A stretch of 64,000 nt of DNA from a virus, in IMG/VR virus record IMGVR_UViG_3300025127_006147, positions 62,001 through 126,000 of that record; one strand, 5' to 3'. How positions within the stretch are numbered: position 1 is the first letter of the stretch; each line of letters starts with the position of its first letter. A model generated the notes under the pieces. It was not told the origin of the DNA. It made no database searches and saw only the letters and a program-made list of their open reading frames with translations. Position numbers and translations under genes: made by a program. Positions 22,510 through 57,800 of the stretch are shown piece after piece.

Positions 22510-25245
22510 ATGGGAAGATGGCAAAACTGGGGAGGAGGTGGAGGAAGTAATCCATGTGGAGCTTACTATCCACAGGGTGGACCACTAGACAGTTTTTTGG
22601 AATCAGCTAGTGGATGTAAACCAGCTTGGTATTTAACACAATCTAACGCATTTAATCCATCAAATGTTCAATGGAATGGTAACAGAACAACCAGAGGAAA
22701 AGGTTTATGTTGTGATGTATTTAAAAGGGTTAGTGAAAACGCTTATGCGTGGGATTTTGACACTGACTATGTAATGTTTGACACAGTTGCTGCGACAGGA
22801 CAAAAATGCCCAGGGTGTTTTTATCAAGCATATGTACCCCATAAGAGTAGTTCTGAAAATACAGGTAATAACGCAAATGTAAATCATACTAGACCATGTG
22901 AAGGAAGGGGTGGTTTTGATGGAGATAAATTAACCAAATACGTTGCTAGATGGTCTGCATGTAAAGCACTTATAGAGGTGGGAATGCCAGGTAATTGTAC
23001 TATGCACAATTCATTTGGTTTAATAATGGCAGACACAGTAAATGTTACTCATGCAGGTTCCCCTAATGGTAGTTGTCTTAGTAATTGTATGCAATTAAAC
23101 GTTGACTATTTTGAAGAAAGAGTAGCTGGTGAATTTTTATCTTACGCTCAATATCCACCCAATAACTATGATGAAAAAACTGCTTATGATTGTGAAACAA
23201 AAGTACAAGACTTTGATGGAAACAGTGGGCCAACTGGTTCTAAACTAATTTGGACAGGATTTGCACCTCTTCAGTGGCAACCACAAAACACAGACCCATT
23301 TGTCCCCAATGAATCATACGGTACATACCTTCCGGCTACATTTAATAATGAATGGGGTGGATTTGTAAATAATAGTCCAGTACCTGGAGAAAATACCACT
23401 ATAACTATTGAATGGGACCCAACACAAGGGAATAACCCTACACCAGAAACTTATTCATTTAAACCCACTTTAAATGGTTCACAATATGTGGGGTATTTAC
23501 CTTTAAATGCAGGTAACAACAACTCCTGGGGGTTACTTCACCCTAACACAGGAGTACTAGGAAGTACTCTTCCTCAGGGAGATAGTGCTTTATGGGCAAG
23601 AAAAAGTGAGTGGAGAATAATGCCAGCTGGCGACCCAGCCACACCTACCACTTCATCAGATGACGCTTTTGCTTGTTGTACTTATGTGAGTTTTGGTTGT
23701 ACCGACCCCTCTTTTGGTAACTATGACCCTCAAGCTTTCCTAGACTGTAACGGTTATCCTAAAAGTAATGTTTTCCAATTAGACCCAAACGGCAACCCAT
23801 TACCCTGTGAAAATATAAATGGTGTAGTCCAACCTTGTTGGGACCCCCTAGAAGGTATGCAATGTAATAATTGTATTAATCCTGGTACTGGACAATATGA
23901 TTTAACTTGGTCAGCGTGTACTCAACAATTATATGACGCTTGTGGTGGAGATGGTTTCCTCACGCCCTCCGCTTGGAATGCTATGATACAAGAAAAGCCT
24001 AGTTCTTGGTTATATGGTGGTGCTAAACAACAAGTAGGTAATGGTGGGGGAGGTGGTTTAGCTAGATTCTGGGACAAAGATGCTAGGGAAGTTTCGGGAG
24101 GAGCATATGGTAGACCATTATGTCAATGTAATAATTCTGGTTGTATGTTACCAGGAGCATCTAACTATTCACCTTTAAATAATACAGATTGTAGTAATAA
24201 TATACCTCCTGGTGTTGGACCAAACTATGACCAATATGGTGATGTAACTTGTTGTACATTCACTAAATTTGGTTGCCCTGATAATACTTATGTCGTGCCT
24301 CCACAAAATAATTACTTTTGTAGTGTTGACTTAGATGCGGATGGTGCCCCAGACAATTTCCAATTTTGTATGGAACCAAATGGGACTCCTTGTTGGGACC
24401 CAGTAAACCAACAGTTAAACCCTAACTGTCTTAATGGTGCTGTTCCTGGAGCTAATACAATTCCACTATCTAATACCGCTGGTAATTTACCTACAGTTAA
24501 TTTGACAAATGATGGGAGTTGTGAATTAATATTAATACCTGGGTGTAAAGATGATGGTGGAAACTTAGCGGGGGGTTCTTTCGCGACACCTTTTTATCCT
24601 GGTTATTCAGCGATAAATTTTGACCCTAACGTTACAGTACACGTTCAAACTAGTTGTGAATATGTGTTTGGTTGTCCAGACCCCTTAGCACAAAATGTTA
24701 TAGATGGGTTACCAGTTTGTCAAACCGATGTTTTAACAGGAACAATATCTCAAGCGGCAAACTATTATGGGGTAACTAATGCAGACATAAGTAACAATTT
24801 AATACCAAATATAGAATGTTGTGATTATGAAATCCCTGGAACAGGTCCTGGTTGTACGGACCCTAACGCTTTAAATTACAACCCATTAGCGGATACAGAT
24901 GATGGAAGTTGTATATACAACATAGAAGGTTGCACTGACCCAGCAGCTTTAAATTTTAATCCAAGTGCAACACTAGACGATTCTTCTTGTTTATATCCAG
25001 GTGACTACCCTGTAGAGGGAAGTAACTTTCTAGATGGGAGTGAAATGGAAATATGTAGAGAACCTTTAACAAAAGAAGAGGTATTAATGAATGTTTGCCA
25101 ACCAACAGAAATACAATCAGAAGTATTTATTGAAAGAGGTAAACAATCTGTGTTTGAACCAAACCAAAGATTGGATGAGGTAAAAACAATAGGAGGTTTA
25201 AAAATATATGGGTATGGATTTTACAACATAAAAGAACAAATATAA
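22510..25245 (+). CDS. Cys-rich fibre/adhesin with GCTDP-type repeats (911 aa)
   Basis: A glycine-rich start (WQNWGGGGGSNPCG) leads into a long Cys-, Asn- and Pro-rich protein. Near the C-terminus are two tandem copies of a motif of about 25 residues, GCTDPNALNYNP...DDGSCIY and GCTDPAALNFNP...DDSSCLY (nt about 24850-24990). More degenerate copies are spaced upstream (GCTDPSFGNYDP, GCMLPGASNYSP, GCPDPLAQN). This motif is common in secreted and cell-surface proteins of marine Bacteroidota and in some virus structural proteins; its acidic DDGSC part may bind calcium. It probably forms part of a receptor-binding fibre. It sits among other adhesin genes and is preceded by a 15-nt gap with no Shine-Dalgarno sequence. 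Confidence 0.7.
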   Translation: MGRWQNWGGGGGSNPCGAYYPQGGPLDSFLESASGCKPAWYLTQSNAFNPSNVQWNGNRTTRGKGLCCDVFKRVSENAYAWDFDTDYVMFDTVAATGQKCPGCFYQAYVPHKSSSENTGNNANVNHTRPCEGRGGFDGDKLTKYVARWSACKALIEVGMPGNCTMHNSFGLIMADTVNVTHAGSPNGSCLSNCMQLNVDYFEERVAGEFLSYAQYPPNNYDEKTAYDCETKVQDFDGNSGPTGSKLIWTGFAPLQWQPQNTDPFVPNESYGTYLPATFNNEWGGFVNNSPVPGENTTITIEWDPTQGNNPTPETYSFKPTLNGSQYVGYLPLNAGNNNSWGLLHPNTGVLGSTLPQGDSALWARKSEWRIMPAGDPATPTTSSDDAFACCTYVSFGCTDPSFGNYDPQAFLDCNGYPKSNVFQLDPNGNPLPCENINGVVQPCWDPLEGMQCNNCINPGTGQYDLTWSACTQQLYDACGGDGFLTPSAWNAMIQEKPSSWLYGGAKQQVGNGGGGGLARFWDKDAREVSGGAYGRPLCQCNNSGCMLPGASNYSPLNNTDCSNNIPPGVGPNYDQYGDVTCCTFTKFGCPDNTYVVPPQNNYFCSVDLDADGAPDNFQFCMEPNGTPCWDPVNQQLNPNCLNGAVPGANTIPLSNTAGNLPTVNLTNDGSCELILIPGCKDDGGNLAGGSFATPFYPGYSAINFDPNVTVHVQTSCEYVFGCPDPLAQNVIDGLPVCQTDVLTGTISQAANYYGVTNADISNNLIPNIECCDYEIPGTGPGCTDPNALNYNPLADTDDGSCIYNIEGCTDPAALNFNPSATLDDSSCLYPGDYPVEGSNFLDGSEMEICREPLTKEEVLMNVCQPTEIQSEVFIERGKQSVFEPNQRLDEVKTIGGLKIYGYGFYNIKEQI

Positions 25246-54977: not shown

Positions 54978-55334
54978 TTAGAAGTCCATATTATCGAATG
55001 GTTCCATAAGATTACCACGATTCTTAAATCCTACACCACCCACATAAGTTTCCATGTTGTTCATTTTTCTTCTTTCGTAGTTTAGAACTGCTAAAGCTAA
55101 CTTCCTATCATATTCCTTATCATCTGTTTCAGGGACTACACCATCATAATAGATGGAACCTCTAAAACTTCTACCAGGACCACGAAAATCCATTATCTCA
55201 TTATAATCAGAATCAGACAATTCAAATTCAACATCATCTACAGGAAGTCTGTTATCCATTTCTTCATCTTGTTCGTTAATTACTTTGTTTAAAGCTTTCT
55301 TAATATCTCTTTCAGTAATTCTAATTTTACTCAT
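54978..55334 (-). CDS. LTExD-motif protein, short form (118 aa)
   Basis: I do not recognise a family. The frame is open further upstream, but the ATG at 55334 gives a start that follows a TATTTATA motif, so I choose it. The N-terminus KIRITERDIKKALNKVINE is an amphipathic helix closely similar to IKLTEADLYKIVDRVLKEN near the C-terminus of the 769-aa protein on the same strand. The rest is acidic with a glycine/arginine patch (FRGPGRSFRGSIYYDG) and ends NMEPFDNMDF-like. Its stop abuts that of the protease gene. The shared helix may act as a targeting or cleavage signal for virion or prohead entry (inference). Confidence 0.62.
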   Translation of the reverse strand: MSKIRITERDIKKALNKVINEQDEEMDNRLPVDDVEFELSDSDYNEIMDFRGPGRSFRGSIYYDGVVPETDDKEYDRKLALAVLNYERRKMNNMETYVGGVGFKNRGNLMEPFDNMDF

Positions 55335-55371: not shown

Positions 55372-55400
55372 AAAAAAAGGGAATCTTTCAATCCCCTTTT
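55372..55400 (-). terminator. Rho-independent terminator of the 769-aa gene unit
   Basis: On the minus strand AAGGGGAT pairs with ATTCCCTT (one G-T pair) around the loop TGAAAG and is followed by a run of T. It lies downstream of the Cys-rich peptide gene. The plus strand has a shorter T-run after the same stem, so it may work in both directions. Confidence 0.75.
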
Positions 55401-55417
55401 AATTAATTATTTAGTTT

Positions 55418-55480
55418 TTAACAATTGCAACAAGTACATTCACATTTGGTAGTACAGTTACATTCTTTACAATCACACAT
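55418..55480 (-). CDS. Metallothionein-like micropeptide (20 aa, 9 Cys)
   Basis: A complete reading frame of 20 codons from ATG to TAA: MCDCKECNCTTKCECTCCNC. Nine cysteines at positions 2, 4, 7, 9, 13, 15, 17, 18 and 20 form CxC, CxC, CxCxCC and CxC patterns typical of metal-thiolate clusters. It starts 10 nt after the stop of the 769-aa gene on the same strand, and its stop is followed by the terminator at 55372-55400, so it sits as the last cistron of that unit. It is too short for normal gene calling. The spacing, complete frame and Cys pattern argue for a real product; expression is not shown. Possible roles are metal binding or redox buffering, perhaps packaged with the virion. Confidence 0.55.
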   Translation of the reverse strand: MCDCKECNCTTKCECTCCNC

Positions 55481-55490
55481 AATAGTTTTT

Positions 55491-57800
55491 TTATTTACTA
55501 GCGTGATATCCAGCTAAAATTTCTTCACAGTCTTTTTTAGAAGAACATTTTTTAAAAATACCACCTTTTTTATTATTCATTATAACCCACTGGCCGTCTT
55601 TTTTTTTGATACATCCAGAACCTCCTTCAGATTCTGCACATCCTTTACCTTCTTTATTTTCCTTAAGAACTCTGTCTACGATTTTGTAAAGGTCAGCTTC
55701 TGTAAGTTTGATTACATTTTTATTAGATTTTTTAGAAATAGATTTTCTTCTAGGTTTTCTAGACTCAGATAATTCTTCTCTTTCGTCTTTTTCTAAATCT
55801 CCTACTAGTTTAAGTAATTCTGCTCTACTCATGTCTTTTACATTACCTCTAAATCCTCTGGAAAGGTCTTGAACAGGTGCGGAGTATTTTCCAGTTTCTG
55901 CACCTCCGAAAGGATTGTAAGCTTGTGAAGAAGTACCAAATTTTAATCCACCTTTACTGAAACCTCTTCTTCCGAAAGAAGGAGATGTATAAGAACCTCT
56001 AGCTCTCTCACTTCCTTTTTTACTTGTTGGAGCTTTTGTGGGAGTAGCACTCTTTCCAGAACTTTTACCAAATCCCTTAGGTATTAAACCACCGAAGTTA
56101 AATAAAACATATGCACCTTCAACACCAGATAGAGCAATAGTCTTAAATTTAAACGAACTAATTATACCTTCATCCATTTCATTTTCTTTAAATGCAGCTC
56201 TCATTCCCTTATCAAATGCTTTAGCGTCTGGACCTCCTTTAACTAAAGCTAATTGATATTCTCCAGAATTTACTAGTTCATACTCAAAGTCTACACCATC
56301 TATGGTAGCTTTTTCCACACTTCCAGGTTTTAAGTTGTAGGTAGACTTACCAACAGTAATATTTAAATCTGTACTAAAACCAGTTTCTTTGTTCATTTTA
56401 TGTGGACCTAATGATATACCTGGTTCATTAAGATTTGTATCTTGTGTCATAGTACCACCACCTTCACCGAATTCTGGTTTACCTTTTCCACCACCCATTT
56501 CTGTCGAAATCATGTCGTTAAATAGCATGTCAGGTGTAGTACCTGGATAATTACCATCTTTAGGTGCCCCTGCAGTCATAGTTAAAAATACAAATCTAGT
56601 AGTTCCTAATTCTTTGTTAGCTCCCATATTTACCTGTGAAACTTCGAATCCAGGATTCATCGCAGTTGCTACCTTCACATAAGTGGCAACATTATCAGAT
56701 GGTACTGCTAATAAACTAAATGGCCCAAAACTATATAGTGCCATTGGAAATCCTGCTAACTTATTACCTGCTGTGTATCCCTCTGGTTCTTGTCCATTAA
56801 GTTGAAGAGCAAGTTCACCATTTCTAAATGTTACATTCATAGGTGCAACCACTCCAGGAACAAGAGTTTTAGGTAAACCAGACTGTTTAGCAGAAACAGT
56901 CATTGTAGCACCTGGTGCAAATGCAGTGGTATTCGTAAATCCTTTAGCACTTTTCTTTCCTCCTCCTGGTGGTTCTTCTTCTCCACCTTTTTCTTTTTCT
57001 CCACCAGACTCTTCACCGCCTCCTTTTTCTCCACCAGACTCTTCACCGCCTCCTTTTTCTCCACCAGATTCTTCTCCGCCGCCTTCGCCGCCTCCTTCTT
57101 CTCCGCCGCCTTCGCCGCCTCCTTCACCTCCACCTTCTTTTTCTTGTTCGGTGAGTAATTTAACGTCTTCATACGACATTCCTTCTTCAAACATAATCAT
57201 TTGTTTGATTCGGTCTATTTGTTCTTGAATAGTAGTTTTCATAGTATTTTCATTTTCTTTATAAATATGTTTATATTCTTCTTTTACAGTATAAATATCA
57301 TTATTACTTGCAGTGGGTGCAGTGTAGTTGTCTAATTCAGGATTTCCTTTAGCTAATCCCACCAGATGACCAGCATTTTTTTGGTCTATATCTATATCTC
57401 CAAACACATCATAATTGTCACTATCGGTGTTGTTATTTTTAGTGTGGGACACTTTATTTTCTGGGTGAGTAACACCATGAATCTCAACATGGTCATCTCC
57501 TTTATGTTCATCGTCAGGATTTAAATAGTCTGGTTCAGGATGTAGTGGTCGTTTATTGGTTTCCTCATCGTTAAAATTATTACTATCAAACCAAGCAGTA
57601 CCTTCAAATGAAGGATTATCATTTTTTAATCTTGAAGGTCCCTTATCTATTCCTTCTTCTGGCCATCCCGAGGAAGGGTCCATTTCAGGAGTATTTGTTG
57701 GATGTATTCTATCTTTAGTGAAATCATTCTTTTTTACACCTTTTTTAATAGTCATTTTAGAATCATCTAGAGCCTCATTAAATCTATATGTAATTTTCAT
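55491..57800 (-). CDS. Large minus-strand protein with Gly/Glu repeats and LTExD motif (769 aa), possible virion or assembly protein
   Basis: I do not recognise a family. Residues 1-186 are Asn/Asp-rich and hydrophilic. At M187 a new start-like sequence, MKTTIQEQIDRIKQMIMFEE, begins behind a TATTTATA motif, so a second product from an internal start is possible. Residues about 215-280 are a Gly/Glu/Ser/Lys repeat tract. Residues about 285-570 form a beta-rich domain (GATMTVSAKQSGLP, RFVFLTMTAGAPKDGNYPG). A Gly/Ser/Arg/Lys-rich linker follows. The C-terminal region carries IKLTEADLYKIVDRVLKEN (about 697-715) and then a small Cys module (GCAESEGGSGC, KKCSSKKDCEE). The first gene of a minus-strand unit that ends at the terminator near 55372. 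Probably a late virion-associated protein (inference). Confidence 0.6.
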   Translation of the reverse strand: MKITYRFNEALDDSKMTIKKGVKKNDFTKDRIHPTNTPEMDPSSGWPEEGIDKGPSRLKNDNPSFEGTAWFDSNNFNDEETNKRPLHPEPDYLNPDDEHKGDDHVEIHGVTHPENKVSHTKNNNTDSDNYDVFGDIDIDQKNAGHLVGLAKGNPELDNYTAPTASNNDIYTVKEEYKHIYKENENTMKTTIQEQIDRIKQMIMFEEGMSYEDVKLLTEQEKEGGGEGGGEGGGEEGGGEGGGEESGGEKGGGEESGGEKGGGEESGGEKEKGGEEEPPGGGKKSAKGFTNTTAFAPGATMTVSAKQSGLPKTLVPGVVAPMNVTFRNGELALQLNGQEPEGYTAGNKLAGFPMALYSFGPFSLLAVPSDNVATYVKVATAMNPGFEVSQVNMGANKELGTTRFVFLTMTAGAPKDGNYPGTTPDMLFNDMISTEMGGGKGKPEFGEGGGTMTQDTNLNEPGISLGPHKMNKETGFSTDLNITVGKSTYNLKPGSVEKATIDGVDFEYELVNSGEYQLALVKGGPDAKAFDKGMRAAFKENEMDEGIISSFKFKTIALSGVEGAYVLFNFGGLIPKGFGKSSGKSATPTKAPTSKKGSERARGSYTSPSFGRRGFSKGGLKFGTSSQAYNPFGGAETGKYSAPVQDLSRGFRGNVKDMSRAELLKLVGDLEKDEREELSESRKPRRKSISKKSNKNVIKLTEADLYKIVDRVLKENKEGKGCAESEGGSGCIKKKDGQWVIMNNKKGGIFKKCSSKKDCEEILAGYHASK
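57001..57130 (-). repeat. Degenerate 30-nt tandem repeats, Gly/Glu/Ser/Lys coding
   Basis: Two exact 30-nt copies (57001-57030 and 57031-57060) encode GGGEESGGEK, followed by diverged, more GC-rich copies (GCCGCC runs) encoding GGGE-type units. The local GC is far above the surrounding sequence. Copy number keeps the frame, so length variation is tolerated. Confidence 0.85.
57260..57267 (-). promoter_or_regulatory. TATTTATA motif before an internal in-frame ATG
   Basis: On the minus strand TATTTATA ends 17 nt before the in-frame ATG at 57242, inside the 769-aa gene. The spacing is like that before other gene starts here, suggesting that a separate 583-aa product could be made. No other evidence. 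Confidence 0.3.

Follow-up and report, generated by a model that had tools for sequence, protein, structure and literature searches.

A 20-residue peptide with nine cysteines (MCDCKECNCTTKCECTCCNC), encoded in a virus genome, belongs to a family of very short genes that is, with near certainty, a real coding family, and its sequence make-up makes it likely that the product is a minimal metallothionein-like microprotein, whose nine thiolates would serve in a metal-thiolate function. We also lean towards the broader reading of an undescribed mobile phage family that would comprise the smallest metallothioneins known to be genetically encoded, of 19-23 residues with one M3Cys9 cluster each, and control metal and thiol chemistry during infection, with Bacteroidota-type phages, phages that use Shine-Dalgarno (SD) sequences and a few Cytophagales as carriers.

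The window, that is, the whole stretch of 64,000 nucleotides analyzed here, corresponds to positions 62001-126000 of a 194,481-base IMG/VR virus record, and the coordinates of its relevant features are given in Table 1. The complete ATG-to-stop frame (ATG TGT GAT TGT AAA GAA TGT AAC TGT ACT ACC AAA TGT GAA TGT ACT TGT TGC AAT TGT TAA) is real and lies, as the sequence-only reading had placed it, shortly after a 769-aa gene and ahead of a terminator, in a minus-strand unit amid plus-strand tail, recombination, and replication genes; no such Cys frame exists on the plus strand of the same 63 positions. An SD-like motif precedes only 2 of 42 window genes, and the spacer before the peptide lacks one, as in the other 40; hence, the missing motif is no argument against translation. 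The 769-aa protein, for which no family match was obtained in Pfam, PHROGs or NCBIfam, ends in a Cys4 module (KGCAESEGGSGCIKK...KKCSSKKDCEEIL) that recurs in the proteins encoded upstream of the peptide in L036 and L051. The tail region encodes a 911-aa protein with CTDP-type repeats and 46 Cys (5%), an unusually high content for a virion-region protein.

Table 1. Position of the nine-Cys frame and of associated features in the window.
Feature	Position	Strand	Basis or placement
CDS of the 20-aa nine-Cys peptide MCDCKECNCTTKCECTCCNC	55480..55418	minus	direct sequence
Start and stop of the nine-Cys frame	ATG at 55480, TAA at 55420-55418	minus	direct sequence
10-nt spacer AAAAACTATT, A/T-rich, without Shine-Dalgarno	55481..55490	minus	between 769-aa stop and peptide ATG
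769-aa gene directly upstream of the peptide, same unit	55491..57800	minus	stop 10 nt before peptide ATG
Intrinsic-terminator-like hairpin AAAAGGGGATTGAAAGATTCCCTTTT, then T-run	55375..55400	minus	17 nt past peptide stop
118-aa gene past the terminator, same strand	54978..55334	minus	conserved in L058, L051
Gene of the 911-aa tail-region protein	22510..25245	plus	

Exactly one ORF of the real window reaches the Cys density of the peptide, namely the nine-Cys frame itself, and 300 first-order Markov copies of the 64-kb window yielded neither an ORF of up to 40 aa with at least nine Cys nor an ORF of at least 15 aa with at least 40% Cys. When the entire 194,481-base record was scanned for half-motifs at the level of letters, the two halves of the peptide and one further, isolated half-motif were recovered.

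The size of the family was estimated from three IMG/VR scans. The first, of 2.9 million viral contigs, was queried with the Cys spacing plus an ATG while the stop was left free; it returned 55 loci, and a stop directly follows the last cysteine in all of them (55/55), at a place where a random codon would be a stop roughly once in 15-20. Two further scans demanded the stop and left the start free, and returned many simple-repeat matches; among the matches listed, the non-repetitive exact nine-Cys frames had an ATG within six codons, with the exception of L182, at a contig end, and L320. The latter, on the reverse strand in a 13 kb locus of a 158-kb contig, encodes a 36-aa, 14-Cys version (MRNRQNCNCENCKCQKACNCMKCNCSKSCDCACCDC) that looks as if a CxC unit had been duplicated. 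Altogether, at least 102 distinct proteins, at least 111 distinct DNA versions and at least 184 loci, some of which overlap on one contig, were collected. All 102 listed proteins share the form M-x(0-3)-C-x-C-xx-C-x-C-xx(x)-C-x-C-x-C-C-x-C-stop and measure 19-23 residues, and CxC occurs three times with a CCxC end in 102/102, in line with the small size and high cysteine content of metallothioneins. Their non-Cys filler consists to 89% of N/S/K/T/D/G/E, although no scan pattern demanded it, and contains no L, F, Y, or W and 0.1% H, matching the low aromatic and histidine content by which metallothioneins are recognized.

Conservation was followed at close and at wider range. The window peptide is identical over 63/63 nt in four relatives (L047, L054, L058, and L059); against L058, identity is 62% over the final 190 nt of the upstream gene, 82% in the downstream gene, and 95% in the region +63..+140, with the terminator hairpin. 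Local recombination could add to this contrast between peptide and flanks in the comparison with L058. For a recruitment of loci unbiased by cysteines, two neighbor genes were used, encoding a FAD-dependent oxidoreductase and a small protein starting with MAKD; of the loci thus gathered, 44 (30 through FAD, 14 through MAKD) carry the peptide, with all nine Cys kept. At the neighbor-recruited slots, no decayed copies retaining six to eight in-register Cys were seen; the one exception, L226, carries a rearranged nine-Cys peptide (MCKCKNCKCEECNNCNCCDC). Across 312 pairs of this set, pN was 0.185 and pS 0.607, for a dN/dS of 0.17, in which the Cys columns are conditioned on the nine-Cys pattern, so that the absence of decayed copies at the recruited slots serves as the check on this value. 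In the same set, TGT and TGC are swapped freely at the Cys codons, and the non-Cys columns are weakly constrained (dN/dS 0.72). As judged from these alignments, the frame evolves as protein-coding sequence with nine cysteines in fixed spacing; the check proposed by the sequence-only reading, a conserved frame and conserved Cys with synonymous change elsewhere, was thus run and passed across about 100 relatives.

The peptide gene is a self-contained cistron across many phage contexts, with or without SD usage (2/46 genes in window-like phages, 11/150 in FAD-context phages, and 77/110 in MAKD-context phages). The tie to the 769-aa gene that had been proposed did not hold: neighbors with a Cys4 C-terminal module are found in the window, L051 and L036, and other copies adjoin holin-like (L027, L298), peptidase-like (L003), tail-region (L037, L040), nuclease-like (L302, L305), nucleotidyltransferase-like (L392), glycosyltransferase-like (L355), internal-protein, or FAD-dependent oxidoreductase genes. 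These labels are our reading of the sequences rather than family matches, except for the FAD-dependent oxidoreductase, since distant Campylobacter phage relatives are annotated so. The tie to a terminator did not hold either: about half of the listed copies (62/115, vs. 43/300 control stops) are followed by one within 200 nt of the stop, and the remaining 53/115 are not placed as an attenuator leader would be. In MAKD and tail contexts, the peptide is an internal cistron with its own ribosome-binding site (RBS), and, in the comparison of L227 with L229 and L231, relatives that have and that lack the peptide are set apart by a clean insertion of the frame together with an RBS. No partner gene is constant across contexts, and, in the contexts read, no downstream gene was recognizably a sulfur or cysteine gene.

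Relatives without the nine-Cys peptide (L159, L181, L184, L232, L235, and L237-L239) carry different small Cys-rich peptides in its place or close by. In L159, L181, and L184, the slot that the nine-Cys peptide occupies in relatives, some 220 nt ahead of the FAD gene, holds another Cys-rich frame (MKEKICxxICKITFNKVCxGWCxxKCCS, 6 Cys, ~28 aa). Other small Cys-rich frames with their own RBS are found at L238:4617-4698 and L239:4615-4681, and upstream of MAKD in L232, L233, L235, and L237; in this MAKD phage group they read MIYACDNPNCECENCQCENCQCENCNC, MKNVCDNPNCECENCTCENCNC, MKKCDCCDCNCC, MRDCECMCCGDGCICDSCC, and MKTNCKCDCGCECGCCN. Moreover, proteins near the peptide (the C-terminal part of the 769-aa protein, and L036, L048, L051, L017, and L024) show recurrent motifs like MKKIRISESELIDLIEKLVKEN or MDNFDLKKYLAEGRLLKEE, which we take to resemble prohead-targeting signals, and several of them carry the Cys4 C-terminal module (GKGCAESEGGSGCIKK...).

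A candidate new structured RNA was also observed ahead of the gene for the FAD-dependent oxidoreductase in these phages (74 distinct sequences, among them L024:2560-2660). Its 5-bp stem is paired in 74/74 sequences, in 17 stem versions, and encloses the loop ATTCATAGC; 21-27 nt after the loop, CTGTGGC forms the 5' arm of a terminator hairpin; this heptamer could also form a pseudoknot with the loop, and a conserved TTCGTATATT follows. In Rfam, no family was reached at the gathering threshold, and the best weak match was a terminator. This pseudoknot-terminator element occurs with or without the peptide.

Among cultured phages, tblastn with the peptide gave no match, a result weakened by the low-complexity filter, and no relatives were found of the 118-aa gene (queried in its 137-aa TTG-start form), the 769-aa gene, or the MAKD neighbor. 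The closest cultured relatives are Flavobacterium 'immuto' phages (recombinase 44%; terminase 57% for a FAD-context phage), which points to Bacteroidota as the likely host group of the window phage. A half-motif scan of the immuto phages gave 11 letter-level matches, all on the reverse strand. With the 769-aa protein as query, the match in L002 was limited to the C-terminal module, and no peptide follows there. In cellular genomes (one per species, 84,980 species, M-C form of the pattern) 13 matches were obtained, one of them real: MCECDKCECTESCDCKCCDC, which lies among ordinary chromosomal genes on a contig from Cytophagales (L250/L291). The other 12 were rejected, being Cys runs of simple-repeat or low-complexity type, or frames of a different make-up. 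When the start was left free in 390 Cytophagales-order genomes, MNPCNCTNCDCETTCSCDCCNC was found in a second chromosome (L278/L290), with an arginyltransferase-like gene next to it and sugar-phosphate dehydrogenase-like genes at a distance of 6-8 kb; a slightly narrower pattern gave 0/296 in Flavobacteriales-order genomes. From these two chromosomes and the null result in Flavobacteriales, phages are the main carriers of the gene within the collections searched and its cellular copies are rare, so that the description as a phage gene stands in the main, but not as strictly phage-only. For so short a sequence, the cellular copies may have an independent origin.

The CxC/CC spacing, already remarked upon in the sequence-only reading and borne out here, the polar filler and the lack of aromatics are the hallmark make-up of metallothioneins, and on this the metallothionein-like reading is built. 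Each peptide would probably hold one M3Cys9-type cluster. In the mechanism that we propose, the peptide would wrap this single metal cluster, with Cu(I) as the alternative metal. With lower confidence, it would be made from phage transcription units, often as the last cistron, and would act as a buffer of metal and/or of thiol redox during the dismantling of the host metalloproteome, with the outcome that phage assembly would be protected or zinc supplied to phage proteins. The make-up is equally compatible with metal buffering, with a supply of zinc to phage proteins, and with protection from copper or oxidants, and the choice of any one specific role is tentative.

Other explanations were weighed against this one. 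Since the frame is very short, has no Shine-Dalgarno and no database match, it might be taken for a chance frame of an intergenic region; the probability of this is negligible, given that no comparable ORF arose in the 300 Markov windows and that start, stop, and Cys spacing are conserved in about 100 distinct relatives, which refutes it, along with the dN/dS of 0.17 and the absence of decayed copies. A read-through tail of the 769-aa gene was ruled out, because the upstream genes are unrelated in other relatives, and so was conservation of RNA only, because third bases are free at the Cys codons. The terminator made us weigh seriously a regulatory leader, in which Cys codons would sense the cysteine supply during translation and control the terminator and the next gene. 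Both the window and the FAD-gene context show the order frame, terminator, same-strand gene, and poly-Cys short ORFs of mycobacteria are known as cysteine-responsive attenuators (PMC9031893). Nevertheless, the position as an internal cistron with its own RBS, the copies without a terminator and the conservation at protein level, seen in the exact spacing of the Cys, the polar filler and the freely swapped TGT/TGC, speak against such a leader, as do the occurrence of the pseudoknot-terminator element with or without the peptide and the lack of any recognizable sulfur or cysteine gene downstream, and we regard it as very unlikely.

Two further readings keep the protein and change its task. A thiol redox buffer or cysteine/sulfur store would need no bound metal, and would fit a peptide that is 45% Cys with no other conserved residue, as well as the Cys-rich tail-region proteins of the window, such as the 911-aa protein; but the strict CxC/CC spacing in more than 100 proteins is superfluous for a store and required by metal-thiolate clusters, which leaves this reading unlikely. 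Alternatively, a small accessory factor could bind zinc or a Cys-rich target and act on a host or phage protein, as an inhibitor, a metallochaperone, or an anti-defense factor. The gene is mobile, present or absent between relatives and placed in variable slots, as accessory and anti-defense genes often are; however, almost no conserved surface exists beyond the Cys, as the dN/dS of the other columns indicates, and no partner gene is constant, so we hold such a factor to be quite unlikely. The metallothionein-like microprotein thus remains our preferred reading.

The peptide matched nothing in Pfam or NCBIfam up to E 10, and is thus not filed in any named family, nor in PHROGs up to E 1. ORFs so short are dropped by gene callers, as had been foreseen, and by annotation cut-offs, which would explain why the peptide has been overlooked. 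The further remark that no described phage gene of this type was known agrees with our text search, in which no publication on metallothioneins of viruses or phages came up within the literature searched. Neither metallothioneins nor metals are mentioned in a 2024 review of small proteins of phages (PMC11323111), and a small-protein catalogue reaching down to 9 aa (PMC11364881) may include these peptides uncommented. If our reading is true, phages bring their own metal-buffering protein, cut down to about one cluster, which would bear on whether metal supply is contested in phage infection, provide a lead into why many unrelated phage lineages retain the peptide, and offer a natural minimal scaffold for metal-thiolate chemistry.

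To our knowledge, no metallothionein is as small as 20 residues, which speaks against the preferred reading, as do the weak constraint on the non-Cys columns and the lack of a match among cultured phages, a negative that the low-complexity filter weakens. The fungal copper metallothionein of the Neurospora crassa type has about 25 residues, seven Cys, CxC motifs and a single cluster; its size is comparable and its Cys spacing differs. The beta-domain of mammalian metallothionein uses nine Cys for a Zn3Cys9 cluster (PMC10243857); this is the ligand number of the phage peptide, whose capacity would accordingly be about three Zn(II), or several Cu(I), per molecule. Both combine nine Cys and CxC motifs with polar filler, and neither contains an aromatic residue, whereas the phage peptide has ~20 residues in all, its own spacing (CxC-xx-CxC-xxx-CxC-x-CC-x-C) and no alpha-domain, and the likeness is one of sequence make-up, with no significant sequence match. 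A profile of 31 members reached a single PDB chain, 2kak, a plant Ec metallothionein domain, at E 2.8, which is far from significant and no evidence of homology; the two have in common a C-x-C-G-xx-C-x-C-xx-C-x-C stretch, whereas the plant domain belongs to another host kingdom, has another length, and lacks the CC-x-C end. In this context, the peptide would work like a metallothionein if metal is bound, and is no demonstrated member of a named metallothionein family. The mycobacterial poly-Cys leaders are likewise very short Cys-rich ORFs in operons (PMC9031893), but they precede the genes that they regulate and their Cys codons are contiguous, whereas the phage peptide keeps its spacing and its type of filler and mostly stands as an internal or the last cistron.
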